A stretch of 64,000 nucleotides of DNA from Pocillopora verrucosa (lineage: Eukaryota > Cnidaria > Anthozoa > Scleractinia > Pocilloporidae), in NCBI RefSeq assembly GCF_036669915.1, contig NC_089322.1, positions 248,001 through 312,000 on the forward strand, given 5' to 3'. The position numbers and the translations under genes are program-made. Positions 1 through 38,694 of the stretch are shown here, piece by piece (position 1 is the first letter of the stretch; every line of letters begins with the position of its first letter). The notes under the pieces were generated by a model. That model did no database searches and was not told where the DNA came from. It saw only the letters and a list, made by a program, of their open reading frames with translations.

Positions 1-3000
1 CTTATTGTGCTACGTATGTTTATCCATTCCCTGATCTTGCTGTTTAAGATCAATTTTATTTCTTTTAATATAGGCCTTTGACTAGTACTTGCGTAAAATC
101 CAATTTGAATACTTATCACTTTTTTGAAAACTGATATGTAACTAAAATTAGATTAATCTTAAGTTGTGTTTATCACTTGTCCCATAACTTTCGGGCAACC
201 GAGTAATTTTGTTGGAGGTAGCTTGGAAGTTACAAGAACAATAAGAAATAATAAGCCACATTTTACATGAGGATGTTCCATTTTGTTATTAAAAAAAAAA
301 GAAGAGGGCCCTGAGACCGGATTCCTTTTTTTCTTTTTCAATGATTCTGATGTTTTTTTAAGTATTTTTATTCAAATCATAACCTACCTAGCTATTCACT
401 ATTCTCAAAATATTTTTTGTGGTTTTTCTATCTTGGTGTACAAAGAGGTACAGGTGTTTTTTCGTGGCTTTTTTTTTTTTTCACTCCTCCTCTCGCGCGT
501 GACTCGCTTTCGCGCTCGCCTCGCACTTGCCTCCGTTTCACCGAAAAACGCTGAAAAATTGCGCCTGTTCTGCAGAACCAGGCCTCCTTAATGAAACTAA
601 GTGTTCATGGTTTCCTCTTTCTTGTCTTTCTTCATATCAAAACGGATGGTAAAAACAAACCTTTTTTTTATAACCACATCAACATTCAGAAAAGGGGTTT
701 TTTTTCTCGGAGTTAGTCGAGAGTAAAAGCTGTGGAAAATATTGCCTGATAATGATCCGAATTAGAACGAATACAGCTTTACTGGCCTTTTCCCTGGAAA
801 TGTAAGTGAATGATCACTAAGCTAAAATTATTAACAACACTTCACTGAACAATTGTTGATTTCTTTCTTTCATGTCAACTGATGCTCAACAGATTGTAAG
901 TATCTTCTTATTGTGCTACGTATGTTTATCCATTCCCTGAAATTGTTTTTTAAGATCAATTTTATTTTTTTTAATTTTTAATTTTTTATTTTATTTTTAC
1001 TTTTAAAATAGGCCTTTGACTAGTATTTGCATAAAATCCAATTTGAATACTTATCATTTATGTTCCATTTTGTTAATAAAAAAAAAAAGAAGAGGGCCCT
1101 GAGACCGGATTCCTTTTTTTCTTTTTCAATGATTCTGATATTTTTTAAAATATTTTAATTCAAATGGTAACCTACCTAGCTACTCGTTATTCCCAAAATG
1201 TTTTTTATGGTTTTTTCTATCTTGGTGTGCATAGGGGTACAGGTGTTTTTTCGTGGCTTTTTTTTTCTCTCCTCCTCTCGCACGTGACTCACTTTCGCGC
1301 TCGCCTCGCACTTGCCTCCGTTTGACCGAAAAACGCTGAAAAATTGCACCTGTTCTGCAGAACAAGGCCTCCTCAATGAAACTAAGGGTTCATGGTTTCC
1401 TCTTTCTTGTCTTTCTTCATATCAAAACGGATGGCAAGAACAAATTTTTTTATCACAAGCACATCAACATTCAGATAAGGAGGTTTTTCTCGGAGTCAGT
1501 CGAGAGTAAAAGCTAAAAAAAGGAATGTAAGTGAATGATTAGTGAGCTAAAATTATTAGCAACACTTCACTGAACAGTTGTTGTTTTCTTTCTTTCATGT
1601 CAACTGATGCTCAACAGACTGTAAGTATCTTCTTATTGTGCTACGTATGTTTATGCATTCCCTGATCTTGTTGTTTAAGATCAATTTTATTTCTTTTAAA
1701 ATAGGCCTTTGACTAGTATTTGCAAAAAATCCAATTTGAATACTTATCACTTTTTTTAAAACTGATATGTAATTAAAACTAGATTAATCTTACGTTGTGT
1801 TTGTCACTTGTCACATAAGATTCTGGCAGCAGAGTAATTTTGTTGGAGGTAGCCTGGAAGTTACAAGAACAATAAGAAATAATAAGCCACATTTTACATG
1901 AGGGTGTTCCATTTTTGTTGTTAAAAAAAAAAAAAGGAGAGGGCCCTGAGACCGGATTCCTTTTTTTCTTTTTCAATGATTCTGATTTTTTTTTCAGTGT
2001 TTTAATTCAAATCATAACCTACCTAACTACTCACTATTCTCAAATTGTTTTTCGTGGTTTTTCTATCTTGGTGTATATAGGGGTACAGGTGTTTTTTCGT
2101 GGCTTTTTTTTTTCACTCCTCCTCTCGCACGTGACTCGCTCTCGCGCTCGCCTCGCACTTGCCTCCGTTTCACCGAAAAACGCTAAAAATTGCGCCTGTT
2201 CTGCAGAACCAGAAGGGTTCATGGCTTCCTCTTTTTTGTCTTTCTGCATATCAAAACGGGTGATAAAAACAAACTTTTTTTTTTTACAAGCACACCAACA
2301 TTCAGATGAGAAGGTTTTTCTCGGAGTTAGTCGAGAGTAAAAGCTGTGGCAAATATTGCCTGATAATAATCCGAATTGGAACGAACACAGCTTTATTTGC
2401 CTTCTCCCTGGGGTTGTAAGTTAATGATTACTAAGATAAAATTATTAACAACACTTCACTGAACAACTGTTGTTTTCTTTCTTTCATGTCAACTGATGCT
2501 CAACAGGGAGTAAGTGTCTACTTATTGTGCTACGTATGTTTATCCATTCCCTGATCTTGTTGTTCAAGATCAATTCTATTTCTTTTAAAATAGGCCTTTG
2601 ACTAGTATTTGCATAAAAGCCAATTTGAATTCTTATCATTTTTTTGAAAACTGGTATGTAACTAAAATTAGTTTAATCTTACGTTGTGTTTGTCACTTGT
2701 CACATAAATTTCCGGCTGCTGAGTAGTTTTGTTCGAGTTAGCTTCGAAGTTACAAGAACAATAAGAAATAATAAACAACATTTTACATGAGGGTGTTCCA
2801 TTTTGTTATTAAAAAAGGAAAAGGGCCCTGAGACCGGATTTCTTTTTTTTTTACTTCCCTAGCTGGTCACTATTCTCAAAATGTTTTTCGTGGTTTTTCT
2901 AACTTGGTGTGCATAGGGGTACAGGTGTTTTTTCGTGGCTTTTTTTTTTTTTTCAGTCCTCTTCTCGCGCGTGACTCGCTCTCGCACTCGCCTCGCGCTT

Positions 3001-4720
3001 GCCTCCGTTCGACCGAAAAACGCTGAAAAATTGCGTTTGTTCTACAGATCCAGGCCTCCTCAATGAAACTAAGGGTTCATGGTTTCCTCTTTCTTGTCTT
3101 TCTTCATATCAAAACGGGTGATAAAAACAAACTTTTTTTTACAAGCACATCAACATTCAGATGAGAAGGTTTTTCTCGGAGTTAGTCGAGAGTAAAAGCT
3201 GTGGAAAATATTGCCTGATAATAATCCGAATTGGAACGAACACAGTTTTAGTGGCCTTCTCCCTGGGGATGTAAGTTAATGATTACTAAGCTAAAATTAT
3301 TAACAACACTTCACTGAACAATTGTTGTTTTCTTTCTTTCATGTCAACTGATGCTCAACAGGGAGTAAGTATCTACTTATTGTGCTACGTATGTTTATCC
3401 ATTCCCTGACCTAGTTGTTTAAGATCAATCCTATTTCTTTTAAAATAGGCCTTTGACTGTATTTGTATAAAATCCAATTTGAATACTTATCATTTTTTTT
3501 AAAACTGATATGTAACTAAGATTAAATTAATCTTACGTTCTGTTTGTCACTTGTTACATAAATTTCTGGTCGCTGAGTAATTTTGTTCGAGCTAGCTTGG
3601 AAGTTACAAGAACAATAAGCAACAATAAGCCACATTTTACTGGAGGGTGTTCCATTTTGTTATTAAAAAAAGGAAAAGGGCCCTGAGACCGGATTCCTTT
3701 TTTTTTTTTTCAATGATTCTGACATATTTTTAAGTATTTAATTGTAATCATAACCTACCTAGCTATTCACTCAGGTGTTTTTTAGTGGTTTTATTTTATT
3801 TTATTTTTTTTGCCTCGCGCTTTCCCCCGTTTGACTGAAAAACGCTGAAAAATCGCGCCTGTTCTGCAGATCCAGGCCTCCTCAATGAAACTAAGGGTTC
3901 ATGGTTTCCTCTTTCTTGGCTTTCTTCACATCGCGACGGATGGTAAAAACTAGACCGTAACGCAGCTTTCCTGGGTCCCTCACGAAAAGTGATATGTTCA
4001 CTCATTTAGATATGGAGATTATTTAGACAACTCATTTGAGGATCAAAATTGTGAAAAAAATTATCCATTCGTCGGTCTTGCTGTTCAGCTCAATTCAAGG
4101 TTTTAATGGGGAAAGTTTGAGGCAAAACCCTTTCCGATATGAAATGCCTTGGACCGCTCTTAAAGAGATCGCCACTTAAATGTTTCCCCTCTCTCCCCCC
4201 TTTCCCCCCCCCCCCCTCCCCCATAGAAAACATACCAATAAACGAACAAACCCATAGGTCCTTTATCACTTTAGAAATAAGAAAATAGCCAGGTTAATTT
4301 AATAATTTTGATCTTTTAAGGAGCAGGTTTATTACATCTTAGTACCAAATGAAGAAGATAATTAATCGAGAGTAAACACTGTAAAATCAAAAACAAAAAC
4401 AAAAAAAACAAAAAAAAACCCAGCCTGAGTGTAATTTAACTAGACCGTAAAAACTAAAACGAAATTAATGAATACATAAACAAATGTCATGAAAGCGATC
4501 CAATTAAACCAGGTTAGCCCAGGACATCCTCAGTGACAATTATGATCAATGATTTCTTCGCTCGTATCGTTGAGTAAGATTGTAGTAAAAAAAGGGAAAA
4601 AATCACCAATCCAATTAGGGCAGATCGTACCACGCTAAAATCATAAAGCAAGGGAGAATTAATTTACTTTTGTATCTTTTATTTCATTTCACCTAATTCT
4701 CAACAGGTTGTAAGTATCTA
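1..4720 (+). repeat. Tandem array of 0.7-0.9 kb intron units
   Basis: A conserved start (CTTATTGTGCTACGTATG) recurs at 1, 907, 1632, 2521 and 3376, with a diverged form near 4720. This gives units of about 906, 725, 889 and 855 bp plus a decayed last unit. Every unit has the same order of landmarks: a poly-A/poly-T interrupted block, CCCTGAGACCGGATT, a GC-rich block rich in TCGC (near 495, 1280, 2130, 2970), and a pyrimidine tract ending CTCAACAG followed by three bases and GTAAGT. Short reading frames of up to 141 codons fall in the GC-rich block but are not conserved between copies, so I treat them as non-coding. The array appears to lie inside a large intron of the kinase receptor gene. 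Confidence 0.9.
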
Positions 4721-5939
4721 TTCATTGTGTTATGTACGTTTATCCACTCGTTGACCTTGCTTTCAGCTCCAATTCAATTTTATCTAAAATAGGCATTTTG
4801 TTAGTATTTGCGTAGAATTCAACTTGGATATATATACATTTTAATTACTTGAATTGAAAAACCTTACGCTACACAAACTTATCAGTGTGAAAGAACCCAT
4901 CTACTACACTACTCAATTTTATTTCATACTTAGTCCTTCTGTAAGTTGAGCTCAATCAAACTAAATTTATTTTCCTCCGAGTCGTATTTTCCGAAATTTG
5001 AAATTATAGATATAAAATTGAATTTCATTGAATTTTTTTTCACTTGTGATATTATATTTAGTGAAGCAAAATAATGTTGCTGAACATGTCAAGGAATTCT
5101 TTGCAATAAAGTCTTTAAATAAAAGTTTTAGTACATCACTATGCAATGTTTGACTGATAAGTCACTGAGCTATGTTATGATTAATAATAGAGTAGTAATA
5201 CTTACAATGGCTCTTATCACTTAAATTTATATCATTAATGAATCATTTTAAAGTTTTCCCAATCAATGAAACTATTGGCACCTTTATTAAAGCAACATGG
5301 CGAATTTCTGAAATGCAGAAAAAAAGGTAACTCGAAGAATAGACCGTGTTGTTCTAAATGGTGCGCATGGAACTTTCATACGTTAAAATTTAGATAAAGC
5401 GGTAGTTAGAAAAATATATTAGTTCATAAGCTTTTGCATTCAATACTAACAATATCTTCTTTTATCATTATTTCTCTCTATTTTCCAAAATGAAATTAAT
5501 CTCCAGGCTGTAAGTAACCACCATTTTATTTATTTACGCGAATCACAGACATTCTAACGTTTGTACATGCCAAAAATGTTTTCAAGTCAGCTGTAATCTT
5601 AAAACACTAATTCTGCTTCTTTATTTACTTTTCTCCCTCAATCTTACCGGATATATCAAGACGGTAAGCGGTTTTTACGTTCATCATCAAAACGAGCTTT
5701 GATCTGTAACACGTTTTACTTAGGTGCTCCGTAATGGGGTCGATTCATTTTCAAATCGCTGTCAAGAATGTAAGGAACAAGTGTGAGTGCAAGTATTTCA
5801 CATCAAGCGTTCAAGAACTATTAGAAAAATATGTGAAGTTACTCTGCTGTGTGGAAGTGATAACTCTTCCACATACCTTCCACACGTTTTTAACTTGCCT
5901 TATGTAATTCATACATGAGCAATAAATAATGCTAATAGG

Positions 5940-6100
5940 ACTGAATGGAGTCCAATTCGGTCTGTAACCATACGAGTGATTATCAAAATCAGAAGACCGC
6001 GCAGCGGGAGTCGGATTTGTTGATTACGAGTATGATTACAGATAGAATTGGACGACTTGAATTCCTGTTTTCAATTAGTCAGAACGATGACAAAATTTGA
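5940..6100. repeat. Interspersed repeat copy A
   Basis: This stretch (GGAGTCCAATTCGGTCTGTAA, then a GCGCAGCGGGAGTC core, then GATTACAGATAGAATTGGAC) has imperfect inverted ends and matches a second, more diverged copy at 11455-11610. I recall this as a frequent non-autonomous element in anthozoan genomes, which is memory rather than a search result. Confidence 0.6.
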
Positions 6101-7845
6101 GAGGGAAAATAGACATCAGTTGCACGTTTTCATTAAAAAAACAACAATTAACTCGGCGAAATGCGCGACAACATCGCTTACTGTCCACTTACACAGGCAT
6201 GACGTGTCCACTGTCCTGTTAGTGCTTAGATCGGGCTGGTGATAATCAATCACGCTCGAGAATTTTGTTATGGTTTTAATTAGAGTGAAAATTGTGTGAA
6301 GATAGTGATCAGAACTCCCCGTTACGAGCACCTGAGTACACGCCCAAATGCGTCTAGTGGAGTAACTCCCTTTTAGCGGTTGAGGGAATGGGACTGATAA
6401 GAACTGTGTCACTTGAATCGGGAAAACACTGGGTGGAGATGGTATTAAGATAACATTTTGGAAATGGGATCAGTATATCCCCCATCCTGACACTAAATTA
6501 ATTGTAAATTACTATCAGCTTTTATTTCTGGTATTCCGCAAATGGTTAACTCGTCGTTCCTAAGACCTCCAAAAACATTATTTAAATTTCCCCCATAATG
6601 ATTATTCTAGATACATTTTCGACCCTCTGGACATCAGGGAAAAATATAATTTCCAATGTGAGCACTTTGATTCCTTAAAAGTTCGTTGGCATACAATAGG
6701 ACGCTACGAGTAGTTAGATTATCATTTAGGTCAGTTTCATCAAACTATTCGCTTAGTGGAGTCCTTCGCTTAGTTTAGAGCCTCTTTCGCATTAATTAGC
6801 CTCCTTGGGAAATACTTCTTCTTACAGCTCGCCTCAATGCTAGTCGTGTTGATAAATACATGTTAGATTCTCTTTAAGGACTAGTCGATAATGATACCTT
6901 TTCCCTTCTTGGTTGTACTCAGCATGTCATAAAAATATTAAAAATTGTTTTAGTTTGCACAATGGCTAATCCAAAAAGTGTCCTTTGGCAGCTGACTATG
7001 TTTTGGTGGGCAAAATACTATCAAATGACCACAGTTTTTTTTTTATTTTAACTTTTTTGTTAACGGTTGAATTATGGATTCGTTTTCTCAAGCGACAGTG
7101 ACAATTGAAGATCTGCTTGTGCACCTCGTTGCGTGTCATTGCTAGTGTCTTTGTTTTTGTTATGGTTCTGAATCAGGCAAAAATATTAAGCAAGCAATAA
7201 TATAAAATGTATTCTTAAGCAAAGAGTAACTTGTCAAAATATTCCTCCTCATCTTTTCCCCCTTTGAAATCTGCGTTGGACTACAGAACGTAAGTAAATA
7301 AAGTATTTCTCTTTTTCCCCTACTTTTGCGTTTCACTGTCTAAGAAGTCCAGGTTAATATTCGACCACAAGCGTTATCTTATAGGCAGCACAATTTGAAT
7401 CCAGGCCTGGTGTGGGAGAAGGACCAGTTTGGATACAGAATTGATTCAATTGATCTTTATGATAATAAAAAATTCCTTCTTCTAGCTGAAGTCAATGATC
7501 AATATCCGTTTGACTGACTCAAATGCATTTCAGCCTTCTCCGCAATAAAATTATGTTGAGCCCTTTGGGATGAATCCAATGAGTTGGATTAAATTGTCAA
7601 GGCATTGTATTTCATTTCTGTGTATGCAAAGTTAGTAAAACTTGATATTCGTCATCTTTTTTCTCGAAGTAGTTGGTACAGTATAAGCATCCAATACGAT
7701 TTCATTCTCGTTTTCCTCGTAATTTGAATATATATTACAAGGAATTATTTCTGCCTTAGTTTGTTTGTTTTTTCGGTTGCTTTGTTTATTTATTCACTGT
7801 TTTTTTTTCTTTCCTGTACTTTCATGTACACGATGGAATGATTAG

Positions 7846-7851
7846 GAAGGC
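7846..7851 (+). other. Candidate 6-nt microexon
   Basis: The sequence GATTAG is followed by GAAGGC and then GTAAGTGCC, after a T-rich tract ending TTTCTTTCCTGTAC. The length is again a multiple of three. This site lies in the first unit of a pair of about 318-bp duplicates; the matching position of the second unit (8164) has no exon bases at all. A 2-nt exon using the later AAG is the alternative reading. Confidence 0.4.
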
Positions 7852-8157
7852 GTAAGTGCCAGTTTTCTTTTATATGTTTTTATCAGTGTTTGTATAATTT
7901 TGAAGTCAAGCTGATGTCCAGTCTTAAGATGCTTTGTACAAAATTAGCTATCTAAACTCGACGGTTCGTCATGTTTCTCCTTTATTTCTCGAGGTGGGTG
8001 GTACAGTCTAATGCGTTCAAGAAGATTTCACTCTCGCTTTTTCTCAGATTTTGAATAAATTGGTAGGAATCCCGTTTTAGTTAGCTTGCTGTTTTTCTAT
8101 TTATCTATTCTTTTTTTTCTCACTCCTGTACAACCATGAATATGATGGACACACCTG

Positions 8158-8169
8158 TCGTAGGTAAGT
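8158..8169 (+). promoter_or_regulatory. Candidate recursive-splice (ratchet) site AG|GTAAGT
   Basis: CGTAG is immediately followed by GTAAGTT, preceded by a long T-rich tract (8110-8125). An acceptor directly abutting a donor is the form of a recursive splicing site, in which an intron is removed in steps and no exon bases remain. It is the counterpart, in a duplicated unit, of the 6-nt site at 7846. Confidence 0.4.
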
Positions 8170-9723
8170 TCAAACTTTCTTTTCTTTGATTTTGACATAG
8201 TGTCACTATAAATTCAAAGTCGAGTTTAGGTTCAGTCTTTAGATCCTTTGTACATCTTACTGCTTTTTTATTGATTTGTATATCTCTTTTCTGTTTCGCG
8301 TGAACGAAGATACCCAAACTCGACGGTTCGTAATGTTTCTCTTTTAATTCTCGAAGAGTGAAGCGTGAAGCTAAATGTTTATCGAAGTTGTGCGACTCAT
8401 CTGATTTAAATTCGAAAATGAAATAGTAAAATATAGACTGTGTTCTTTATGAAGACGATCTTTCAACTTTGAATATATATGGTGGTCCTCCACACTCTAT
8501 TTCTTTCCCCGGTTATCAAGTTTTGGATAAGTAATACACCAAATGCGAAAATGCCTGACTAATCGGTCGAACTGAGTTGAGCTGCATCAAAGCGAGGCTA
8601 ATTAGTCCTAGGGTTTTTAAGAATGTGGTTCTTATGCGTGGTTGTCGATCTCATTCGTCTATTTACGCTATGCCGACGAGTTTTTGTGTCCCTTAGTCCA
8701 ACAATAGGGAGGAAAATCAAAATGCAGGTGGTTCTCGTGAGATAAAAGTTCTTTCCGAGGAACCATTTCATATTTTTCTATCAGAGCAAAATTTGGCAAA
8801 CTGCTGTTGTCATTTTGTAATGAAAAAGCCAGAACTTGATTTGGTTCATATGGATTTCCATCCTACCCCTAATCCTCCATATATTTTCAAGGGAGTGGTA
8901 TCTTAAGACGAAAGAAAGGTCACGGTTTGTCATCGGAGTGAAAACACCGTTTAGATGAACAACTTTTTTTTTTCCTCTCGATGTTGTCACTGCGACTATC
9001 TGTTAGTGAATTGATCTGCTTTAGTGAAGGTATTTAGATCTCTAGGCTCAAGAGGTCCGCGATAGTCGTTGTTTGGTTTTTTTTGCTTTCCATCTTTCTT
9101 TTCTTTTTCCTTTTTATTTGATTGAAGCTACCACTTCCCAATTATTATCGAGCACGTTGTGATAAAAAAAAAATTAAATAAAAAAAAAAATAGTGAGATA
9201 TATCTTCTTCGTGTTGCATTTGATAATTCTATGTTGTAAACTTATTATAGTTTTTGCTTTAGAGTGTTTACTTTCTTGATTGGTTTTTTTATCATTTTCT
9301 TTTTAATCTGCTGCATTGGCCCTCACCTGTCAAATCAGGGTGTAAGTAACGTTTTCGTTGTGTAATAATTTTCTCTTGTCATTAGTAAAGATAATGGTTA
9401 ATGTTTAAGTAAATCGGTGTTCATGGTTTCTATTACATTTAACTTGCTCAAAACAAGTGGAATATCTATATTGACACCGCCCAACAAGTGAAACGAGGCA
9501 GAAGACTTGCCTACCTGTTCGTAACTGATAATTGAGTTTTATTGATTACTTGTAGTTTGTAGTTGATTAAAATCCATCGCATTCTGTTAGTGTGAGAGAG
9601 ACTCGTTAAAAGTGCATTTTTCGAGCTGATTTTAGCCTTTTACCCCAGGGATTTATTGTGGGGGCTTTTATATCCCAGGGATGAGCCTGGAGCCCGAAGC
9701 ACTCTGTATTCTTGAATAACTTA

Positions 9724-9929
9724 TGCCCCATTCACACCAGCAAAACATGTTTTGTTAAACTGGTTTTCATTGAATGAAAATTATAAACAGAGAACTGAAA
9801 AACTTGATTTTCCATTGGATTCAAGTACTTGCTAACTTGCATTTCCAATGTGCTACATTCAAGTCAAAAGTATTCGGTTAAATAGTTTCTATGAAGAAAA
9901 AAAAAATTAAACTGTGTTTAACAAAACAA

Positions 9930-9960
<31 letters not shown>

Positions 9961-9966
9961 GGGGCA
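9724..9966. mobile_element. MITE with TTA target duplication
   Basis: The ends are inverted repeats (TGCCCCATTCACACC at the left, GGTGTGAATGGGGCA at the right), extending less exactly inward (AAACATGTTT on both sides). TTA flanks the element at 9721-9723 and 9967-9969. A 3-bp TTA duplication fits the PIF/Harbinger group; the 243-bp element has no coding capacity. Confidence 0.8.
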
Positions 9967-11454
9967 TTAGTGACCCACAGAAACTGTGAAAGTTTGAAAG
10001 AAATCGGTGAGATGACATGCGTCACGCCTGCCTGGTCTTCTCGCGGACAGACTTAGAGAAGCTCACTCTGAGGAACCATATCATATTTTTCTTTCAGAGC
10101 ACCATGATTCACAAACGATATAGCGCCTTTCACCTTTTTTATGTTGTTTGAATCGAACTCTTCGAGGAAAATCCAAGGAAGTGTCATTTTCATCAACCAC
10201 GGCTTGTGCCAGCCCTGTTACTCCCTAACGATATGGCCGAAAATTTCCCGCGCTTTCTGCTTTTGTGCTTTTTGTCGATCAGATCGTGTTCTTTCAATGT
10301 CATTGCTGCTATAGTGAAAGTATTTAGATTTCCAGGGTAAAGAGATCCGCGATCTGGTCTGGTACTAGTACCTTGAAGTCGGGTGGGCTGAGGTCGTTTT
10401 CCAGTTTCTGTAAAGCTGTTTATACAGCTGCCTCGATCGAAAAGTTTGTCAACAGTTCCATAGACCCCGAAACGCATTATTGTGCTTAGTTTGGAGTCAA
10501 TTTTTTAATTGCGGCAACAGTTACCGCAGGATCATTGCAAAATGGACTCTTGCAAGATCTGTATTTTGAAAGGAAAATGGCAGAGTTCAGTGAGCCCTGG
10601 GAAATAAATAATATTAGTGGACCAAGTACGATTAAATAAGAAAGAATACTCTTCCCATGTGGTACTAATACACCTCGCCTCAAAGGAACGAAATTAAATT
10701 CCCGGTTTTTCATTGATATCTAAGTTTTGTTAATTGAATTTAGTCGTTGCTTCGCTTTTTTACTTTCCATCTTTCGTTCCTTTTTCCTTTTTATTTGATT
10801 GAAGCTACCACTTCCCAATTATTATTGTGCACGTTGTGATAAAAAAAACATATAAATAGTGAGATATATCTTCTTCGTGTTGCATTTGATAATTCTGTGT
10901 AATAAACTAATTGTAGTTTTTGCTTTAAAGTGTTTACTTTCTTGATTGGTTTTTTATGATTTTCTTTTTAATCTGCTGCATTGGTCCTTAATTGTCAAAT
11001 CAGATGGTGAGTAACGTTTTCCTTGTGTAATAATTTTTTTCTTGTCATTAGCAGAGATAATGGTTAATGTTTAAGTAAATCGGTGTTCATGGTTTCTATT
11101 ACATTTAACTTGCTCAAAACAATGATTCGCAAATGATACAACACGCCCTCCCTTTTTTATGTTCTTTTAATCAAAATATTCAAGTAAGATCCAAAGAAGT
11201 TTCATTTCATCGACCACAGCTTGTGCCAGCCCTGTTACTCCCTAACAATATGGCCGAAAATTTCCCGGGCTTTCCGCTTTTGTGTTTCTTGTCGATCAGA
11301 TCGTGTTCTTTCAATGTTATTCAACTCCTGTCTTGATGCATTGGCCCACTATGTCACTGAGATGGTCGGTTTTTCTTTCTAAGTGGCAACGTTCTCAAAA
11401 ATTTGGCAAACTGCTGTTGTCATTTCATAATGAAAAAGCCAGAACTTGATTTGG

Positions 11455-11610
11455 TGGATTCTAATTCGGTCCCTAATCATACGAGTGATTATCAAACTAG
11501 GACGAACGCGCAGCGTGAGTCCCATTTGTCAATTATGACTATGATTTTAGACAGAATCAGGCGAAACGAAGTCCCGTTACCAAATAATCATAACTATTAC
11601 AATTTTTTTC
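11455..11610. repeat. Interspersed repeat copy B
   Basis: A diverged copy of the element at 5940-6100, with the shared blocks AATTCGGTC, CATACGAGTGATTATCAAA, CGCGCAGCG and GAATC/GAATT near the ends. The overlapping 78-codon frame is a by-product of the repeat. Confidence 0.55.
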
Positions 11611-12501
11611 TCTTTAGTTTGTTTTACATCACTTTCTAATTCCCTTACTTTTTTTCTGTTTCTTTTCCCTTTCATTTGGGCAACTTTGAAAAATTAGGCT
11701 GTATGTAACATTTCTGTTACAGTTTGAACCCTTATTAGGGATAAGTTTTATCTACTTTGTAGATCTCAAAATAGCCAATGGGACTTTCCAATGAAATAAA
11801 AAAGAATACTTCCCATATGGTACTAGTACACCTCGCTTGAAAGGACCGAAATTCAATTCCCTATTTTTCATCGATATCTGGGTTTTACTAATTAAATTTA
11901 GTCTTTGTTTCGCTTTTTTACTTTCCATCTTCTGTTTCTTTTTCCTTTTTATTTGATTGAGGGTACCACGCCCCGATTATTAAAGAGCACTTTGCGATAA
12001 AAAACGCATAAATAGTAAGATATATCTTTTTCGTGTTGCATTTGATAACTCTTTTTTATAAACTAATTTTAGTTTTTGCCTTAAAGCGTTTACTTTCTTA
12101 ATTGTTTTTCTTCTTCTTCCTTTTAATCTGGTGCATTGGTCCCCACTTGTCAAATCAGATGGTAAGTAACGTTTTCGTTGTCTAATAGTTTTATCTTGTC
12201 ATTGATAAAGATAATGGTAAACGTCTAAGTAAATTAGTATAAATGGTTTCTCTTACTTTTAAATTGCGCGAGACAAGTGGAATATCTGGATTGACACTGC
12301 TCAACAAGTTAAACGAGGCACGAGATTTGCCTGCCTGTTCGTGATTGATAATCGAGTTTTATTGTCTGTTTGTAGTTTGTGGTTGATACATACTTTAGTG
12401 CTTTTACTTTCTTTAATATTTTTTTCTTCATTTTCGTTTTAATCTGGTGCATTATCCCCCATTTGACAAACCAGAAAGAAAGTAATGTTTTGGTTGCTTA
12501 A

Positions 12502-14994
12502 GTGCCACTTTCGCTAGGAGTGGTCTTCTCGACTTCCCGTCGGGAAAAAGTGTTCTTTTACTTTTTGCCCATGAAAGGGTTTAGGACACATGTTTCAAAA
12601 ATAGTTCAGTAGTTCTCCAATTCTTTTTTTTCGCGTCGCCACAAGCTAAAAATGATTTTTGGCTAGTACACCCGTGTGGACAGCGATCGAAAGTGTAAAT
12701 TTCACAGATTTTGTCCAGCGCGCAGCGACTGTAATAATAAAGCTCACGCAAACCTATCTTGCTATAAGTTACAAGGTGCCTTTAATTAGTTCACAGAGAA
12801 AATATGGAAAACTTTAGCTGAAATATTTTTCACACAAGCGTGATCAGTGGAGATCCTTCTCTTCGACCTTTATGTGCATATCAAATTTACCAAATTGCAC
12901 GAAAGAATTATTAAAATGCAGGCGTTGATCGGGCTAAAAAAGCATATCAGTGTGTAGTCTATACAGCTATGAAGTTACCGATTGCCTCAAACCCACGGGT
13001 ATATCTGTAGCTTTCATCCACCAACATCATAAAAACAACGCAAATCCACGTGTTTGCTAGATTGCGCTCTTGTGAATGATCGTTTGCATAATTCTTAAAC
13101 TTGACCAAGATCTCCTTTTGACCAGTCAAACTTCGTTTGTTTATCGTCTATGTTGAGGATTTCAGGTTTTCATAACAACTGAATGGAGAATAGATGCCGA
13201 GTTGTCCTAAAGCGTTGCGTAAAGGTAATCGGTCGCAACGCTTGCGCGCTTGCGTGACTTACAAGGTCGGTCGGAAGGCGCTTTCGTGATAATTTTCGTT
13301 GAAATATTTGGTCATGAACTACGCACAGTGTGGAGAAGATCAAAATTAGGGAATAAAGTTTGTAAAATGTGAGGCCGTGAAAGAAAGCCAGACTGACTGG
13401 AGATGTTTTCGAAGTTTTCGGAATATATTTTCAATTTCTCGAATGTGAAGGCTATCGTTTAGCTAAAAAATTGATTCGTAAGGGCCTCACTGGGCTATCT
13501 GCACGAGTAGACAAACCAGAATTCTCTGAACAAAATCAAAGGAAAAATTGTCATGACAAATTTTTGTCTCGAGTTTTGCATCCATTTAAAAATTTCAAAG
13601 TTGTCAATTTTTTTCGTCAAGGCTTGATCTGCTCATGAGACCAGCCGGCATATTTTGCCAATGGACTCAAATTCTAGTTGCGAGGATTTATCGTACGTCG
13701 TTTCAAAGTTCTAAAATCCACGAGTTTCGCAACAAAAGAAAGTGAAAGCCTTCCAGATAAATTTTAGTCAGTTCAATAACAAGCTTGTTGTAGTTTTTAC
13801 GACAAAAATTGCGTTGAACACTCAGTCTCCTTACACTACCTCACATTTTCCTTTGTGCTCTGGATGCTCAAAAATACTTTTACTACATTATCAGTGTCTT
13901 CCAGGTGTTCCCATGTTTAAAACATATAAATATCTGTTTTGTTTTCCATTTCGAGGCCAAAATGACCGGACCAAAACAAGCTTGGCTTGTACTCATAGAA
14001 ATCAGGGCTGAAATATCAGCAGCCACAACAATCTTTACTTTCCACGGATCAAGTAAATAATTTAAAAGAAAATGTTCTCTGTAAAAAATGTGAAATTCGT
14101 AAGTCCATTTTAATAGCTTTTAATTCTAATTCGTTACATTATCAAATTTTGGTTCCTCGATTTAGGTCATATGACGAGGGAAAAATTGCACGATCACATC
14201 ACGCAATACATCATGCTGGGTTTGTCCAGTTGATTTTGATGGTTGCAGAGAAATGTCTAGTTTGTCCATAACACCGTAAGATCATCAATGATGGAAAAAA
14301 ATTTGTAGAAAGGAGGGCTAGTTAATCGCGTTCCGTGTGCAAAATCTCGAGAGAAACTGCAAGAATTCTTTCAGAGTGTATGAGTTGTGTTTTGGTAAAA
14401 AACACTGTAACGTATTTCAAATTGTTTGTGGGCCCTTTTGAGCAACGCGATATGTCTGTAATGACTAGAGTGCCAAACTTTATTCTTTAATTTTTATCTT
14501 CTCCACACTTTGTGTAGTTCATGACCAGATATTTCAATGAAAATTATCGCGAAGGCGCCTTCCGACCACCTTTGTCTACTTTGTAAGTCATTCAAGCGCG
14601 CAAGCGTTACGACCGATCACCTTTACGCAACGTCGAAGGATCTCCTCTGATCACGCTTGTATGAAAAATATTTCCACTGAAGTTTCCATATTTTCTCTGT
14701 GAACTGATTGAAGGCACCTTGTAACTTGCAGGAAGATAGAATTGCGTGAGCTATATTATTGCAGTCGCTGCGCGCTGGACAAAATCTGTGAAATTTACAC
14801 TTTCGATCGCTGTCCACACGGGTGTACTGACCAAAAATCATTTTTGGCGTGTGGCGACCCGAAAAAAAAAAGAATTGGAGAATAACTAAAATATTTTTTA
14901 GACATGTGCCCTAAACCCTTTCCATGGGCAAAAAAAATGAAGAAAACTTTTTCCGACGGGAAGTCGAGAGGACCGTTCTTAGCGAGAGCGGTAC
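12502..14994. mobile_element. 2.5-kb foldback transposon flanked by TTAA
   Basis: The two ends are long inverted repeats. The left arm (12502-12868 and 13195-13345) matches the complement of the right arm (14478-14994) through CTTCCCGTCGG, TGTCCACACGGGTGTA, GTCGCTGCGCGC and AACGCTTGCGCGC blocks. Left-arm bases 12869-13194 have no partner in the right arm, so one arm carries an insertion or the other a deletion. TTAA lies at both outer edges (12498-12501 and 14995-14998). The interior has no recognisable transposase; the 89- and 72-codon frames look accidental. A TTAA duplication would suit piggyBac-like mobilisation, but the termini are not ones I can assign. Confidence 0.85.
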
Positions 14995-17900
14995 TTAAAA
15001 GTTATTAGCGTAATAATTGTTACTGACTAAATAAAATTGCTACAAACAAGTCGAGTCGAGTAATTGTATTTCGAAAAGAGTAAATGTTTCAAGGTTTTTA
15101 CCTTTCATTACATCAAGAAGTAATTCAAGTTGTGTTTACTTTGTTGCTCCCAGAATAGCACAGACACAGACAGTGTTAACATTATGCAAAAAAGTATAAG
15201 TTTTGATTGCTATCATGCAATTTACTTCACAAAACATCTAAGATTAAAATTTCTTTTTTTGGGGGTTGTATTTAATGATTATAGGTATTCATCAAATTGC
15301 GTTTGTACTCTAGTGTACTTAATTCCTTTTCTTTCTTTCTGTATTTTCCTTTAAATCTTGCGCATTGACCCAACTTTGGGAAATTAGACAGTAAGTGACG
15401 TTTTCGTTCCTTCTAAATAGCTATCAGTTAAGATAATGTTTTCTATAGGATTGGAATTGCTTGAGGCAAGCTGAATATCTATATTGATATTCAATGTAAT
15501 TAACAAGTTATATGTGGTGCCGAATTTGCTCTCTGCCTGTTCGGAACTCCTAATTGAGTTTCGTTGACTAATTGTAATTTGTGTTCTAGTTTGTTTACTG
15601 TCTCTCTAATTTTCGCGAAAAAAATTTGTGCGACATTTTCTGACCAGTTCAGATCTTCTTTTCAGTGAGTTGAAATTTCGGGTGCTTAAGACGCATAGTT
15701 TCTTCTCGTGATCAGTAAAAGAAAGCGCAGCTCGAACCGTCACTGAATTTTTTTAATTTGAAACACAGTCTGATGATCGCTTAGTATGTGAAAATCCAGT
15801 TACAATTCACCTTATCTAGAATTTTATTTTGCGTAGCATATCTTTGTTTAGAGCACTTTAGGGTGAGTTAAACAACCTACGCACAGCATGTTCAATCTTT
15901 TAGTTAAAAAAGTAGAAAATCACTCACTTAGGAAAGTTTCATTGTGTAGTGGTATTTGTCTTTTTCCTTTTGCGATCATTGGCCTTTCGGTACGTTGGAT
16001 TTCTAAGCAACTCATAGACTAGGTCATAAAATACGGTGAAAGAAAACAGAATTCTATAATTTATATAATTTTGTTTTCTTTCACAATATCAAGTATTTAA
16101 AAGTATCAATTTGTTGCCTTAGTATTATTTTTTGTATGAAACACTTAAATTGAGCTAACAATTTATTTCTGTTGCTCTTTCCTCTGTAAAATCATGGTTT
16201 GTGGACAATTTAGCGGGTAAGAAATGATTTTAGTTCACACATAGATCATGTTATTAAGCAAAACGTAAAAAGAGTGAAAATTAAACAACCCCTATCGAAG
16301 CGCTTTTCTTTTATTCTGTTCAATTAAAAATGCTTTGACTGTCTCACCTTTGCGAGGTATATCAAACATTATTATACGTTCTTTTTCCTTTAAAAGTCAG
16401 TTATCATTTATTGTTATCTTTTGCTTCCCTTTTTGGCAGCGAAAGCAGTGTCACTTTATTATTTTATTAAAGAATATCAATCGTTTTCGCATACCTCAAA
16501 GTGGTTCGTTTATTGCTGTCCGCAAGAGATTGTAAACTAATTTTTATCTCTTGTGTCCAGCTTATAACCTCTTGTGTCTGCAAGATATTATAATCTCTTG
16601 ATGTCCATATGATGGCATAAATTAATTCACATTAATCGATTTTATCATATGGCCCGTCTGGCCCCGCTCGCGCAATTCCACAGAAAAGCTGACATCTGTA
16701 GGGCCGGACGGGTTGATGTGAGCCGGCGCCCGTTTCTCGAAATTCCCAGTAACTTAACAGGCTCGAGGCAATATTTTAAAATCAAAATTTTAGGAAGAGA
16801 GAAGCGGCCTGACAACCTTAGTATTCCATTTTGCTTCTTTAGCTAATAGTTTTATTGTAGAATTTTTAAGCTTTTGAAACCTCTTGAAGGAAAGCAGAAC
16901 AGCTTTACGGGCCCGTTAAGTTACCAGAACCCCGAGAAACGGGCTCCCTAGTACACAACGGCTTTAAACTGATAGTAAATTTCAGTTGATTCATTTTCTC
17001 TTCTTTTCCATCGGGTTCACCAACATCTCATTGACATAACAGGTCGTAAGTAGCTTTTTTTTACTTTTCCTCATTTTTACATTTCTAACAAACCAGGTAC
17101 TATTCGACAGTCATCATGTGTTAGACTCTCTTCAGAGTTATCATCATTTTTGCGAAAGAGTAGATTTGTAAAGGAAAAAGCTTTACTTACAATGAACCGG
17201 TATAGTTTTCGCCCCAATCATCATTTTTGATTGCGTCCAAGAGTTAAATTTAGGCAGAACGTTCTTTTTACTGTTGGTGGCTGAGACTTTTACTTAACGA
17301 TACCAAACTGACGAACAATGTTAAGAATATCAAATGTGCATCACTAACTAACATATCTCTTTTTCTTATTTCCTTCCTCAACGGGCAAAAAGATCGTAAG
17401 TATGTTTTCTTTTTATAGTTACTTGGCGCATTTCACACGTCTTTTCACTACTGCAGTAACAGTCATGTAACATATTGGTGTCACTGTCGCTTACTTTTGT
17501 AATAATGAAAGCTACAATTTTGGTTTTTTAATATTATTATGGATGAGACATTATGATCATCAATAAACATGGCATTCTGATATTCGTTATGGTTGGAAAC
17601 TTATTGAAGTCGTTTTGAATTAGGCTCTTGTGGAAATATTTATTCAGTGTGAACCATAAGTAGATAAGGATCGATTTTGATTCAGTGGCTCAGTTTACGA
17701 AAAGATTTAATGTTGTCTGTGATAGACTGTAAAAATGAGGTGTTAGTTATTGAAACTAATTATGAGAATTAAATTCATAATCATGAATATGGTTTCATGT
17801 CAGAACTATTTGTTGAGCAGAGGTGTAGGACGACTAATTAATGAATATCAACGCTCTTGGTAGCTAAATAATTTATTTTATTTATTTTTCTGTTCTCGAT

Positions 17901-19214
17901 GTATTTTTTTTTATTATTCCTTGGCCTTGGAAATTGTGAAAAACGATTAGGACGTAAGTAAATGTTTCGTTGTGATTTAAATCATATCTATTTGCATGGT
18001 ACCTTTACAGTGCGTTTACGTTAACATATTTAACTAAAGTACAGGTGATAAACGAAAGAAAAAGTGCATTTCTAGATAAACAACTGAATGTTTTGAGCTA
18101 CAGGTGCACGTTTTAATTGTATTTTTTCTATAACTTGTATTTACATGCCGCTTCTGCAATCACTTAGCTGGTAAGTTGAATTTAGTTTATCTCGCGCAAT
18201 TCTTATCCTTAATAATTATGCTCAAGACAAATAAATTTTTCTTTAGCACCTAAGATCCCATTTACAACCGGACCGCGTATGAATTGTTTACTCTTTTCGG
18301 AGTGCATGTCGATTACGTGTTGTTAAAACAAAGCCAGGTTATGATCACAGCGAATCAGAATAACGAAAAATCATTGGAGCCTCAAGAATCTCATATTCAA
18401 AGCAAACATTTGGCATCCAGGACTGGAAAACGCACGAGATTATGTGAAATCAAATTTGCTGAGAAGCTAGTAGTGTAAGACGAGTCGTAACAAAACTCCG
18501 ATGTGACCGAGGATTACTTCTGAAACCCCATTGAAAATCGCTTTCGCTTACAACAGTACAGTTTCAACCAATAAAATTTACACTGACATCCATCAGTGTG
18601 TTTAAGTTTAGTTTTATGCTTTATTTTGAATTTTGAGCTCAGCTCATGCTTACGGTATATTTTCATCGGTAAAGACTTCCATAACTAGCCCCTCATCCTG
18701 TGATCTGCTTGTGACAGCTGACAAGGAACATTCGATTCAGCAATGTTAACTTTCTCTACTTTCTGATAGCGACTGAATCTCTTCGAAGACCGCAAAGAAA
18801 AAAATTCACGATGTCTACCATAGATTCATTATAAGGTCTGACAAACGCAGAACAGAAGTAAATCAAAGTTTAACACAAGTAATTCAAGGGCTGGTCATAC
18901 CACGCATAAAATCAGTCAAACCCTTAACGCGAAACCGTCGTGAACTAGGTTAAACAGAAAGTTAGAAATGGAACCCATCCTTGATAATTTTCTCTTAAGT
19001 TTCTGGAGAATCTTTTTCCAGCATCACATCTTTCTCTGGGAAATGTAAATTTAGGCGCTAATGCTCGCTTTCCATTTGTTGAGAGAGTACTGGAACCTTA
19101 TTCCTTTCCTAAAAAGGAGAGGAGGGGTAGGATTTTACGATGAATTGTTATTTCATAACTTAAGCTATGTTATTTAGATCATTCACTGCTCCTCCTTTCT
19201 TCTTTTCTGTCTAG

Positions 19215-19226
19215 CCAAATTGGAAG
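19215..19226 (+). other. Candidate 12-nt microexon
   Basis: A pyrimidine tract (TCCTTTCTTCTTTTCTGTCTAG) is followed by twelve bases and GTAATT. The length is a multiple of three, matching the neighbouring 3-nt sites. Alternatively the AAG next to GTAATT is itself the acceptor, making this a second zero-length recursive-splice site. Confidence 0.35.
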
Positions 19227-20402
19227 GTAATTATCAATATCATCCGTTCCTATAAATAAAGAACTCTTCTATGGCTGGCTCAATATACACTATTGACTCT
19301 CTGCACAGGCTGATTACTGATCAGCAAATTGCAATCGTAAATAGCAAAGAAATATCTGCGTCAACGACAGTTAGTGATAGCTAACGAAACGATTTTACTG
19401 ATGTGGTAACAATCAGTATAAAATCAATACCCAAGCTCTGTAATAAACGATATTTGTATAATTATCATCAGATATCAGTCATATTTGGCTGATTGTTTGT
19501 TTCATTTAACAAATTTTGCTACATAATTATCGATTTCAATGTAAAATATTGACGTACCAAACAAACTGGTTGGTTCAAATAAACAAATGAATAGATAAAT
19601 GGCTTAACGTCTTTTTTCAATATTGTTTTTCTCCTTCACGGCGTTCTTTCCGGATTCATAAGCGGGTGAGTTCAGTTTGTTTGTTAAGCTTATGATGTGT
19701 TAGTAAAGTATTCCAAGGCTATATTAAGCCACTTACTTACTCACCGAATGTGACTCTTTCCTTTCATGTTCACCTAACATCCTCATCCTAACTGATATGA
19801 CAGATTGTAAGTAGCCATGCTTGAACTATCATTTATCAACGAATGTATCCCAATAGAGGGATTCAGACAGGATACTCTGCTCTGTTGATCAGTGGATGTG
19901 CGGACAAAGATGTTGCATAGAAATTCAAACTTTTATTAGTTACAACAATTGAATTTCAACGCTTCAGGCTTCCGCCATATACTGTTGGAACTTTTACAAC
20001 AACGTGGAAAATTAAAAATTGAAATCGTTAAAAATCCTGGTTTGTTTCTTTTAAAAATTTTGCACAGTCATCCATTTGAGCAATAGAAAACAATGTCACT
20101 CTCCCTTGCTTATAACATGATAAATCTATGACAGATATTGAGAGAACACAAATGATGCTTTTAAATAGGGAACTGTAAGCTGGGTGATTTATAAGCTTCA
20201 AGCCATCAATCTTTTTTTAACTTGGAGATGTTAGCTCGAAGTGTCCTTGGAAATTAGAAACTAGGGATATAAACGATAATAATTATGTATTTTAGTATCC
20301 TTTATGACAAGATACAAATTAATGCAGCAAAGGAAGTAAAGAGCATAGGTAGAGTGATAATATGACATATGACACTTTTCGCACAACTTGTTGTTTTCAA
20401 AG

Positions 20403-20468
20403 GTTGTGTGGCGTGGTCGTCTTGGAATGGTATCTGCAAAGAGTGCGGTCAATACCGGCAAAGAGTCG
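20403..20468 (+). CDS. Probable 66-nt exon, thrombospondin type-1-like fragment
   Basis: The acceptor TTGTTTTCAAAG and donor GTAAGT bound 66 nt. In phase 1, the phase used by the following Ig exon, it reads CVAWSSWNGICKECGQYRQR plus V. WSSW, Cys-x-x-Cys-Gly and spaced Arg residues resemble the first half of a thrombospondin type-1 repeat, which normally has WxxW, C-x-x-x-C-G and RxR. Reading past the donor in this frame meets a stop within three codons, which supports splicing there. The second half of a standard repeat is not seen downstream, so the domain may be partial. Phase 0 is also open (beginning VVWRGRLG), so the phase assignment rests on the neighbour and the motif. Confidence 0.5.
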
Positions 20469-20889
20469 GTAAGTGACAAGGGGGAGTTTTTTGGAATTTG
20501 TGACTCGCAAGTGCAATGGCGGGTTTTTGCCATTGTTTTACAACTTCCAATTCTAGACAGCATTTATAAGCTTATATTCAGTTGGATTCATTCCTATGTA
20601 TAAATTGCGATGATAAAAGTTATTGCCAATGGATGTTTTCTCTACTAGAAATAAGATGACTTAATCTCCAACAGTTTATTACTTTTAAAAGATTATCTGG
20701 ACAAACTTACTTCTAGAATTTAACTGCTCAAGAACTCGGGAATCACGGCCTTTTAAGTGTAAGTGGTTTTATGTATGAGGAGAAAGTTAAGGATTCATTT
20801 TTTGGTAGAAAATGCTGCACAGATATCCCTCAACTGTCCTTTTATTATCTTCCAAACTCTTTGTAAAATACGCTTTGTTTTTACCAACC

Positions 20890-21022
20890 GAGTTAGTAAT
20901 GTAGATTGGCCACCGTAAGTAGTTCTCAAGTTGATGTCTCGAGTGTTAGCTCTGACGAAGGGCTAACGGTCGAAACGTCAGCTGACAAAATCTTTACCGT
21001 GGCCAAGTTATATTAAATTAAC
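20890..21022. repeat. Penelope/retrozyme-like tail with hammerhead-like core
   Basis: The block CTGACGA, GGGCTAACGGTC, GAAAC resembles a hammerhead ribozyme core (CUGANGA, helix II, GAAA), although helix II has a G-G mismatch here. It is flanked by inverted GGCCACCGTAA and TTACCGTGGCC segments. I recall similar sequence at the ends of Penelope-like elements in marine invertebrates. It abuts the truncated 5' end of the decayed Ig exon next to it. Confidence 0.5.
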
Positions 21023-21251
21023 CCTTAGCTCAAAAGTCAGTCGGTTACCTCTAAATCATCGCCTCAGTTTAAATTCTCTTTAAGCGGCTTCGCTACACTT
21101 GATATACTTTGGACTAAGGATGGGTTGAATCTTGGTAATAACAACATTCTCACGATTAATCAAGTGAGCTATGGAAATCCTGGTCAATAACATGCAGTGC
21201 TAAAAAAAGTGAAGGAAAAAATTAATCATCTTTTCATATTACAATCACAGG
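21023..21251 (+). pseudogene. Decayed duplicate of the Ig exon
   Basis: This stretch aligns base for base with much of the intact Ig exon at 21342-21590: TAGCTCAAAAGTCAGTCG against GAGCTCAAGAATCAGTCG, GATATACTTTGGACTAAGGATGG against the exon's tryptophan region, then TAATAACAACA and a TCCTGGTCAATA segment. The Cys codon before the tryptophan is gone, the Tyr-x-Cys motif is broken by a TAA, and the acceptor side is replaced by the repeat just upstream. A donor-like CACAGGTAAAT remains at its end. Confidence 0.8.
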
Positions 21252-21341: not shown

Positions 21342-21590
21342 GTCCTCCTGAAATTAATCCTGAGCTCAAGAATCAGTCGATTGCATATAATTCATCGCTT
21401 CCGTTAATTTGCTTTCTGAGCGGTTGCCCTACACCTAAGATACTCTGGACTAGGGATGGGGTGAATCTCAGCAACAACAACACTTACACCATTCGTCAAG
21501 CAAGATTGGAAGACTCTGGTCAATACACCTGCAGCGCTAAAAACAGCGAAGGGAGCAAAAACTCAACTTTCTGGATCGAAGTGGCGGGAG
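21342..21590 (+). CDS. RTK exon: Ig domain 1
   Basis: Phase 1-1 exon of 249 nt, the classic arrangement for a shuffled Ig domain. It starts (G)PPEINPEL and contains a Cys in LICFLSG, the core Trp in ILWTRDG and the second Cys in DSGQYTCSAKN, as in I-set domains. Asn-x-Ser/Thr sites are present (NQS, NSS, NLS, NNT, NST). Acceptor CTCAG, donor GTACGG. Confidence 0.9.
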
Positions 21591-38168: not shown

Positions 38169-38694
38169 TGGCGCTCACGTTCAGACTTGTGGCTCTCTCT
38201 TTCCCTCTTTTGGCAGCAAATGAACGTTTATTAGGCGTTCCTTCTTCGATATAAGAGTGTTATTGTTCTGTTGAGAATTTTAGCAGTTTCTATTGGATAA
38301 AAAATTCCTCCTGTCGTCTGATTTTCCGATGACAAATGTCACAGCTATAGTTAGACTTGTTTTTAACTCTTTCGTGTTTTATTCAAATTCTTCGAATTTT
38401 CATCGTGTTTAGTGAGCGGGTGCCACATTTATTTAACAAACTAAATGACGTAGAATCTGCGAGTTATTTTTCATCGATACTATGTAGAGCTTCCTCAACA
38501 AGTCAGCTTTTCTTTCCAGTTCTTGACCCATGTGTGTCTTTGTCCTTCTTAGCTATGCTTGTTTTGTTTTTAAGGTAACATATTTGTGGTTCTTTTATGA
38601 TGAGCAAGTGCTTTTTAGATGAAAAAAATTTGCATAATACACTGGTGTTTAAGAACATTGAGGTCAATTCTCATAAAATAAAGGCATCCTTGAG

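Follow-up and report, generated by a model that had tools for sequence, protein, structure and literature searches.

The window analysed here, a stretch of 64,000 nucleotides from the coral Pocillopora verrucosa (assembly GCF_036669915.1, contig NC_089322.1, positions 248,001 to 312,000, forward strand), carries a gene for a predicted receptor tyrosine kinase that begins left of the window. Between the exons for its second LDLa domain (LDLa-2) and for a TSP1-like domain lie 26 three-base sites and one six-base site, which span about 24 kb and are bounded by splice-like acceptors and donors. From comparisons among paralogous loci, we consider it highly probable that these sites are phase-1 exons, joined in order, that encode a variable part of the ectodomain in a tandemly expanded family of receptor tyrosine kinases.

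Architecture and spacing of the array

The predicted receptor comprises, in order, a signal peptide, two LDLa domains, the microexon domain, a TSP1-like domain, Ig domains, a transmembrane segment and the kinase. Its signal-peptide-like exon was identified by eye at contig position 239991, and the two LDLa exons, ending at contig 241117 and 242867, both score above the Pfam cut-off. The window opens (contig 248001) inside a repeat unit, and to its left there are three-base sites at contig 244026, 245161, 246391, 246535, 246759 and 247987 as well as six-base sites at 243242 and 241988. The last of these sites (M0a, contig 241988-241993) lies between the two LDLa exons and is a six-base microexon candidate, intact in all six loci where it was found. 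The array amounts to 84 bases in total, as against the large LDLa, TSP1-like, Ig and kinase exons.

The initial annotation of the window had reported, at positions 893 to 19806, about twenty AG-NNN-donor sites, fifteen of them with the exact donor GTAAGT across some 19 kb, most with upstream pyrimidine tracts. Both counts proved accurate: the plus strand contains exactly 15 AG-N3-GTAAGT sites with triplets from 893 to 19804, and two sites with GTGAGT donors (11004 and 19663) and three with weaker donors (5661, gtaagc; 11698, gtatgt; 16214, gtaaga) bring the total to 20. The interval was correct but incomplete, as the array runs on leftward for about 4 kb before the window, with the six three-base sites listed above. 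Two additional AG-N3-GTAAGT triplets on the plus strand, at 20466 and 31520, are each the end of an ordinary exon, and the minus strand of the full window has two such sites.

With k denoting the number of bases between acceptor and donor, the GTAAGT count in bases 1-20400 was 15 at k = 3, whereas the 60 other values of k from 0 to 60 averaged 0.47 and reached at most 3 (Poisson P = 5e-18); first-order Markov shuffles (n = 1000) averaged 0.27 such sites and likewise peaked at 3. The plus strand of the window has two GTAAGT sites at k = 0 versus 17 at k = 3. The excess survived the collapse of tandem copies: nine sites were left after reducing the two tandem families to one site each (P = 2e-9), and five (P = 1.3e-4) after the harshest collapse, which also merged the four single sites at 19804, 17043, 17393 and 17951, whose profile similarity to a family is weak (nhmmer E 0.025-0.11). 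The GTAAGT copies found 94 bases 5′ of all four S6 copies in the window (see below) are a piece of the duplicated unit. Weaker donors showed no significant excess by count at k = 3 (GTRAG-A/C/G, 3 versus a mean of 1.1; GTATGT, 1 versus 0.28), and one GTATGT reading at k = 7 uses the same acceptor as site 17393. Sites 5661, 11698 and 16214 were retained because they have the pyrimidine tract and are conserved in paralogs; the tract is absent from every GTRAG(A/C/G) site at other k within 0-12. Site 5767 (AAT, gtaagg) was dropped, its pyrimidine tract being below threshold and its triplet introducing a stop into the window frame.

The signals that border the sites look like splice sites. Pyrimidine content at positions −15 to −45 was 0.71-0.75, versus 0.52-0.53 for all AGs, a value reached in none of 5000 samples, in agreement with the tracts reported initially. 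Content from −15 to −3 of the microexon acceptors was not elevated, and the tract lies further upstream than in the ordinary exons of the gene (pyrimidine content at −14 to −3 of 0.50 in 17 sites versus 0.73 in 14 exons). The acceptors scored only moderately with a generic matrix for the last 20 intron bases (not fitted to corals), with which k = 3 was nevertheless prominent (12 sites at thresholds 10 and 12). Among the 17 GTRAGT sites, exon base 1 is a purine in 15 and intron base 7 is an A in 13. By their motifs, with an acceptor and a donor bounding a short stretch, the sites would qualify as microexons.

Conservation among paralogous loci

A pattern with the exact flanks of family 1 and a free NNN yielded 38 matches in 353 Mb, all on the same contig and in about 14 clusters, and none with the reversed control. 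We compared eight of these clusters, designated W (the window), A, B, D, E, F, G and H; the others lie at contig 321 kb and at 6.57, 7.28, 7.38, 7.52 and 7.82 Mb. Locus E covers only S6 to S10, and the 208 codons considered below do not include the final exons of G and H. Within the covered stretches, all loci possess the array, with the same order of sites and differing copy numbers (two to seven S6 copies and one to four S10 copies). Exact-string searches found the end of the LDLa-2 exon in six of the eight loci, that of LDLa-1 in four and the start of the signal peptide in the window locus alone, several stretches being too short leftward. The tails of G and H contain CGG, ATT and then the CMAWSSW exon, matching the other loci.

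In a blastn survey, which would miss copies too diverged, 188 of 200 homologous places keep both AG and GT, including 160 of the 171 outside the window's own locus. Eight of the 12 broken places correspond to a single old dead copy common to all eight loci, the others numbering four. Over the eight arrays (205,727 bp), GTRAGT sites number 157 at k = 3 and seven at k = 0; the next-highest values within k = 0-30 are 29 at k = 6 (13 of them being the conserved six-base exons), 23 at k = 25, mostly one duplicated unit, and 19 at k = 1, paralogy multiplying chance sites across all spacing classes.

All sites in the window lie on the plus strand. Family 1 is represented by four S6 copies, ATT (893-895, with AG/GTAAGT and a pyrimidine tract), ACT (1618-1620), GGA (2507-2509) and GGA (3362-3364), recognized by the site motif and by paralogs, with S6 sites in all eight loci. 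They are followed by S7 (GTT, 4707-4709), intact at six of seven homologous sites, and by S8 (GCT, 5507-5509), S8b (ACG, 5661-5663, donor gtaagc) and S9 (AAC, 7287-7289), each intact in eight of eight loci; in S8b, the G is fixed and bases 1-2 are variable. Family 2 comprises the S10 copies GGT (9339-9341), ATG (11004-11006, donor gtgagt) and ATG (12159-12161), likewise assigned by motif and paralogs. The less certain candidate S10b (GCT, 11698-11700, donor gtatgt) has an invariant GCT and is intact at five of six homologous sites, with none found in A and G. A dead S10 copy that has lost its donor (AG-AAA-GAAAGT, 12475-12477) is shared by eight of eight loci.

Further downstream, S11 (ACA, 15388-15390) is intact at seven of seven homologous sites, and S11b (CGG, 16214-16216, donor gtaaga) is invariant at as many, while S12 (GTC, 17043-17045) and S13 (ATC, 17393-17395) are each supported by seven of seven. 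S14 (GAC, 17951-17953) reads GAC or AAC at 7/7. S15 (CTG, 18168-18170) has counterparts at six of six homologous sites, with a seventh in the tail of H; S16 (CGG, 19663-19665, donor gtgagt) and S17 (ATT, 19804-19806) at five of five, with two more in the tails of G and H.

Two other short candidates were found. Between S11 and S11b, the 12 bases at 15653-15664 (X12, ATCTTCTTTTCA), located between AG and GTRAGT and identical in seven of seven loci, may constitute a frame-keeping 12-nt exon. Candidate X7 (7 nt) was discarded: its length is not a multiple of three and its donor is other than GTRAGT in A, B and G. The family-1 units at 283-4000 share a C/T-rich element (CTCCTCTCGCGCGTGACTCGC...), possibly a transposable element carried along by the duplications.

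Reading frame and codons shared between exons

The ends of the signal peptide, LDLa-1, LDLa-2, TSP1-like, Ig and transmembrane exons at the window locus are all in phase 1, and exons of three bases would keep this frame. In phase 1, each of them straddles two codons, contributing the last two bases of one and the first base of the next. The earlier proposal of a peptide-building array between the extracellular domains of a receptor kinase gains strong support from the paralogs, except that the triplet would not itself be a codon.

The joined triplets contain no phase-1 stop in 208 codons across the loci, and still none when S5, S10b or both are omitted; S5 has a weak upstream tract. Shuffling each column of S5, S6, S8b and S10, the variable triplets, on its own produced a mean of 7.1 stops, and 0.02% of 5000 runs were stop-free. 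Phase 2 encounters stops in four of the eight loci (W, B, F and G). Phase 0, in which a triplet equals a codon, was considered since S4 and S8 vary only at the third base (GCN), and was rejected: we preferred phase 1 because the flanking signal peptide, LDLa, TSP1-like and Ig exons are in this phase and because it explains S4, S7, S8 and S8b together.

Three codons that would be assembled across exon borders are constant: TGC at S3|S4 in seven of seven loci, TGC before S8 in eight of eight, and GAA at S8b|S9 in eight of eight. The other bases of these border exons vary, S4 and S8 being GCN, S7 NTT and S8b NNG. In S4 and S8, the GC and the T before it make up a Cys codon (in the window, the T before S8 is the last base of S7), and N opens a variable codon; in S8b, G opens the Glu codon that is completed by the AA of S9. 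Likewise, the last T of S17 and the GT of the following exon form a Cys codon. In H, where S7 has lost its donor (ATAAGC), and in G, where no S7 was found, a T at the end of the preceding exon preserves the Cys codon. This constancy of the border codons is the strongest support for the ordered joining and translation of neighbouring microexons, and such conserved codons favour ordered inclusion.

The predicted peptides share the frame PQRTSC-[4-8]-C-x-E-[2-5]-TGH(R/Q)PADCC. They read PQRTSC-PYYYWRS-C-YE-RYGYD-TGHRPADCC in W (PQRTSCPYYYWRSCYERYGYDTGHRPADCC is the predicted peptide of the window locus, including S5 and S10b), PQRTSC-LNWF-C-RE-RWN-TGHQPADCC in A, PQRTSC-VSGWRTA-C-DE-HRGYY-TGHQPADCC in B, PQRTSC-LHWGV-C-YE-RN-TGHQPADCC in D and PQRTSC-PYYYWRS-C-YE-RDGYN-TGHRPADCC in F. 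The frame is altered by a Lys for Arg in G (PQKTSC-LRDYLDGE-C-WE-LDY-TGHRP) and by an Ala for Thr in H (PQRTSC-HLGVG-C-WE-HGYY-AGHR), and locus E yields a partial peptide.

Two predicted hypervariable loops

The triplets of the two duplicated families, which share long duplicated flanks with unit copies 0.2 to 1.7 kb apart, are hypervariable. In S6 (35 copies), diversity at the three positions was 0.64/0.55/0.66 versus a flank mean of 0.045, about 14 times more variable, and none of 110 flank columns was as variable; among 17 pairs of copies with less than 1% flank divergence, the triplets differ in 13. In S10 (20 copies), the values were 0.66/0.54/0.69 versus 0.114 in the flanks, and 1, 4 and 0 of 110 flank columns reached them. 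Conversely, nine of the 18 three-base single-copy classes are invariant (S2, S3, S10b, S11b, S12, S13, S15, S16 and S17) and their flanks vary. The 77 variable residues of seven loci include 18 Tyr, 10 Arg, 9 Gly, 8 Trp and 6 Asp, a bias due in part to the preference for a purine at exon base 1; this base is the second of its codon, which makes the loops polar almost by construction. The codon pattern and its variation make it very probable that these microexons undergo ordered splicing and translation, S6 feeding hypervariable loop 1 (HV1) and S10 hypervariable loop 2 (HV2), both comparable to the complementarity-determining regions (CDRs) of antibodies.

Ordered joining between the LDLa-2 and TSP1-like exons would thus generate a small Cys-framed domain, PQRTSC-HV1-C-x-E-HV2-TGH(R/Q)PADCC, in which duplication of an intron-microexon unit would lengthen a loop by one residue and base substitutions within a triplet would alter one or two neighbouring residues. 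With only three bases, such an exon falls below what exon definition requires; intron definition, which has been proposed as an alternative route for microexons (PMC8378409), is the most likely mechanism. Splicing would proceed in sequential steps, helped by the strong GTRAGT donors and by the pyrimidine tracts 15-45 bases upstream. As joining of an upstream exon to NNN immediately regenerates a donor, these steps would likely run 5′ to 3′, in a process akin to recursive splicing that leaves a three-base remainder, yet not of the fly AG/GT type.

From the composition of the loops, their Cys framework, the size of the family and its rapid change, we would guess that the loops bind diverse ligands. 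Tentatively, and with the odds somewhat against it, the family could be an inherited repertoire of recognition receptors, with CDR-like ligand-binding loops held in single-triplet exons, their length set by unit duplication, their sequence by triplet change and with optional skipping, serving allorecognition or the sensing of symbionts or pathogens and coupled to tyrosine kinase signalling.

Alternative explanations

Several observations weigh against the ordered joining and translation of the array. The array was read from genomic sequence; the 130 retrieved proteins include none with the searched parts of the predicted peptide or the LDLa string, and a search of 358,753 bases showed no spliced retrocopy. 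Exon sets differ between loci, since S5 has no match in H, S7 none in G and S10b none in A and G, and S5, S10b and X12 fit the frame whether included or omitted, so that the exact list of exons is provisional. The order test alone is weak, since whole-triplet shuffles were stop-free in 35% of runs, and the 20 triplets of the window remain open in 41% of random orders. In phase 0 the eight loci contain a single stop, the TGA of S5 in locus A, and stops alone therefore do not exclude it. Furthermore, shuffles and site counts overstate significance because the paralogs are related. As to the name TSP1-like, Pfam TSP1 gave no match in the window's own exon pair, the name resting on the similar N-terminus of the Oculina protein P0019, which passes TSP_1 and TSP1_CCN.

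The microexons might be real but used alternatively, in subsets or one at a time, producing many loop variants per gene. Each 3-nt exon keeps the frame, random half-inclusion of the 20 sites in the window leaves 80% of the subsets open, and S6 and S10 are arrays of similar alternatives; nevertheless, the conserved Cys and Glu codons are built from two neighbouring exons, the fixed G of S8b is meaningful only if S9 follows, and the T-ending exons before S8 where S7 is lost imply fixed neighbours. These arguments disfavour one-at-a-time use of the Dscam type for the framework exons and have little bearing on skipping within S6 or S10. We regard alternative use as possible but rather doubtful, an estimate that does not exclude the one for ordered joining, as ordered inclusion with some skipping fits both. 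Decay of skipped relics, or chance, is very unlikely to account for the array: 160 of 171 homologous sites outside the window locus are intact, and the hypervariable S6 triplets, together with the invariant CGT, CAT, GTC, ATC, CTG, CGG and ATT among flanks with mean diversities of 0.045-0.187, do not fit neutral decay, even though the long duplicated flanks of both families, the dead copy in all eight loci and the four other broken sites are what duplicated intron pieces with splice-like motifs would leave.

We give the least credence to the sites being way stations for recursive splicing of a long intron, their three bases remaining non-coding. This would agree with the juxtaposition of acceptor and strong donor signals, with their distribution over about 24 kb and with the lack of Pfam domains, at E values up to 0.05, in all three forward translations of bases 1-19892. 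However, according to the available part of the source, fly recursive sites have AG abutting GT with zero bases between them (PMC6110457), whereas here the excess is at k = 3 and there is none at k = 0; stepwise removal would also leave the triplet in the mRNA, and phase-1 openness and codon-wise conservation would be unexpected. Ordered joining of translated three-base exons thus remains the reading we prefer.

Comparison with known systems

The variable loops of antibodies and variable lymphocyte receptors (VLRs) differ in length and sequence while their framework is fixed. Similarly, the two predicted coral loops vary in both respects, are set on a fixed Cys framework and are rich in Tyr, Arg, Gly, Trp and Asp, although the diversity is seen between germline paralogs and arises through triplet exons. 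Among microexon systems, the neural SRRM4/eMIC programme is characterized by a UGC motif beside the acceptor and by dependence on the eMIC factor, NCAM is an Ig-superfamily surface protein, and the microexons of the Schistosoma micro-exon genes (MEGs) are mostly longer than 3 nt.

Single 3-nt microexons are described, in the available parts of the sources, for mouse NCAM and Drosophila troponin T (PMC8042270) and for Drosophila homothorax, where they are flanked by CAG and GTGAGT or GTAAGT (PMC7392893). As in the coral, these are three-base, frame-keeping exons, but they occur as a lone 3-nt exon per gene, unlike the 26 in series at the coral locus, two classes of which are hypervariable. MEGs, as far as the source was available, contain many tiny symmetric exons, mostly with a signal peptide, and encode variable secreted or surface proteins, microexons making up to 75% of the coding sequence and variants arising via exon skipping (PMC4015677). 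The coral gene shares with them serial symmetric microexons (26 three-base and one six-base) and a signal-peptide-like exon; it differs in that its microexons are nearly all of 3 nt, vary between paralogs and form a small share of a large receptor kinase, 84 bases falling short of the large part of the coding sequence that defines a MEG.

Drosophila recursive splice sites likewise juxtapose acceptor and donor motifs along a very long intron, but the coral sites hold three bases, which would remain in the mRNA, and the k = 0 counts of 2 in the window and 7 in the arrays, versus 17 and 157 at k = 3, differ from what the fly type would give. The plant genes APC11 and VPS55 have one-nucleotide microexons, that of VPS55 held by a conserved GTRAGT donor (PMC8831610); in the available part of that source there is one such tiny exon per gene, of one nucleotide, and hypervariability is not reported. 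The open PMC literature, whose coverage leaves out bioRxiv preprints and most subscription papers, yielded no comparable array of 3-nt exons. Nor did we find relatives in viral and genome contig collections (one pattern match in a viral contig was judged to be chance), a relative of the predicted domain among solved structures (best match E 0.31) or a Pfam match on that domain.

Remaining exons and other features of the window

The exons downstream of the array, all on the plus strand, comprise TSP1-like exon a (20403-20468, phase 1-1, CVAWSSWNGICKECGQYRQRV), with homology to the opening residues of P0126 and P0127 (tblastn) and P0004 (by eye); TSP1-like exon b (20717-20758, phase 1-1, EFNCSRTRESRPFK); two phase 1-1 Ig exons (21342-21590 and 24858-25130), whose surrounding open frames match Pfam Ig_3 with 9.6e-14 and 3.6e-17; a transmembrane exon (25808-26014) homologous to P0127 and P0124; and the tyrosine kinase and C-terminal exons (27173-33780, introns included), with PF07714 in five of five kinase pieces, two of them above the cut-off, and tblastn matches to P0008 and P0127. 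The nearest proteins are coral FGFR/VEGFR/Cad96Ca-like receptors. By its Ig matches above the Pfam cut-off, its PF07714 pieces and its homology to coral receptors, the predicted product qualifies as a receptor tyrosine kinase.

The sequence AWSSW is present in nine of the 130 retrieved proteins, eight of which start exactly at MAWSSW, where the array ends, and one eight residues earlier; the window gene has Val at the position of that Met. As the LDLa string and the peptide parts are absent from all 130, the region upstream of MAWSSW is missing from the protein models.

A decayed Ig-like exon with in-frame stops (21017-21240) separates TSP1-like exon b from the first intact Ig exon. The second Ig exon is immediately followed by a 117-base tandem repeat (25145-25364), whose nearly two copies are 97% alike. 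The catalytic loop of the kinase (29826-30059) reads IIHGDLAARN instead of IIHRDLAARN; HGD is also found in P. verrucosa P0008, and HRD in the other full-kinase proteins compared. A 123-base tandem repeat at 32463-32939 encodes a 41-residue repeat in the C-terminal tail of the receptor, with one more unit in the window than in P0008. Elsewhere in the window, two open reading frames at 37131-38174 (minus strand) and 39640-40077 (plus strand) resemble, by eye, pieces of 7-transmembrane receptors, and 56865-57665 holds a reverse-transcriptase-like open frame of a LINE-type element, also recognized by eye.

Significance

If the proposed exons are confirmed, this would, as far as the open PMC literature shows, be an array of three-base exons without precedent and the first instance of a splicing unit of about one residue serving as a module of protein diversification. 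A natural run of more than 20 consecutive 3-nt exons would call for an explanation in splicing biochemistry. It would also expose a blind spot of annotation, since eight of the nine public proteins with the TSP1-like start begin at the end of the array and the variable domain is absent from them. For corals, the locus would provide a candidate family of recognition receptors.

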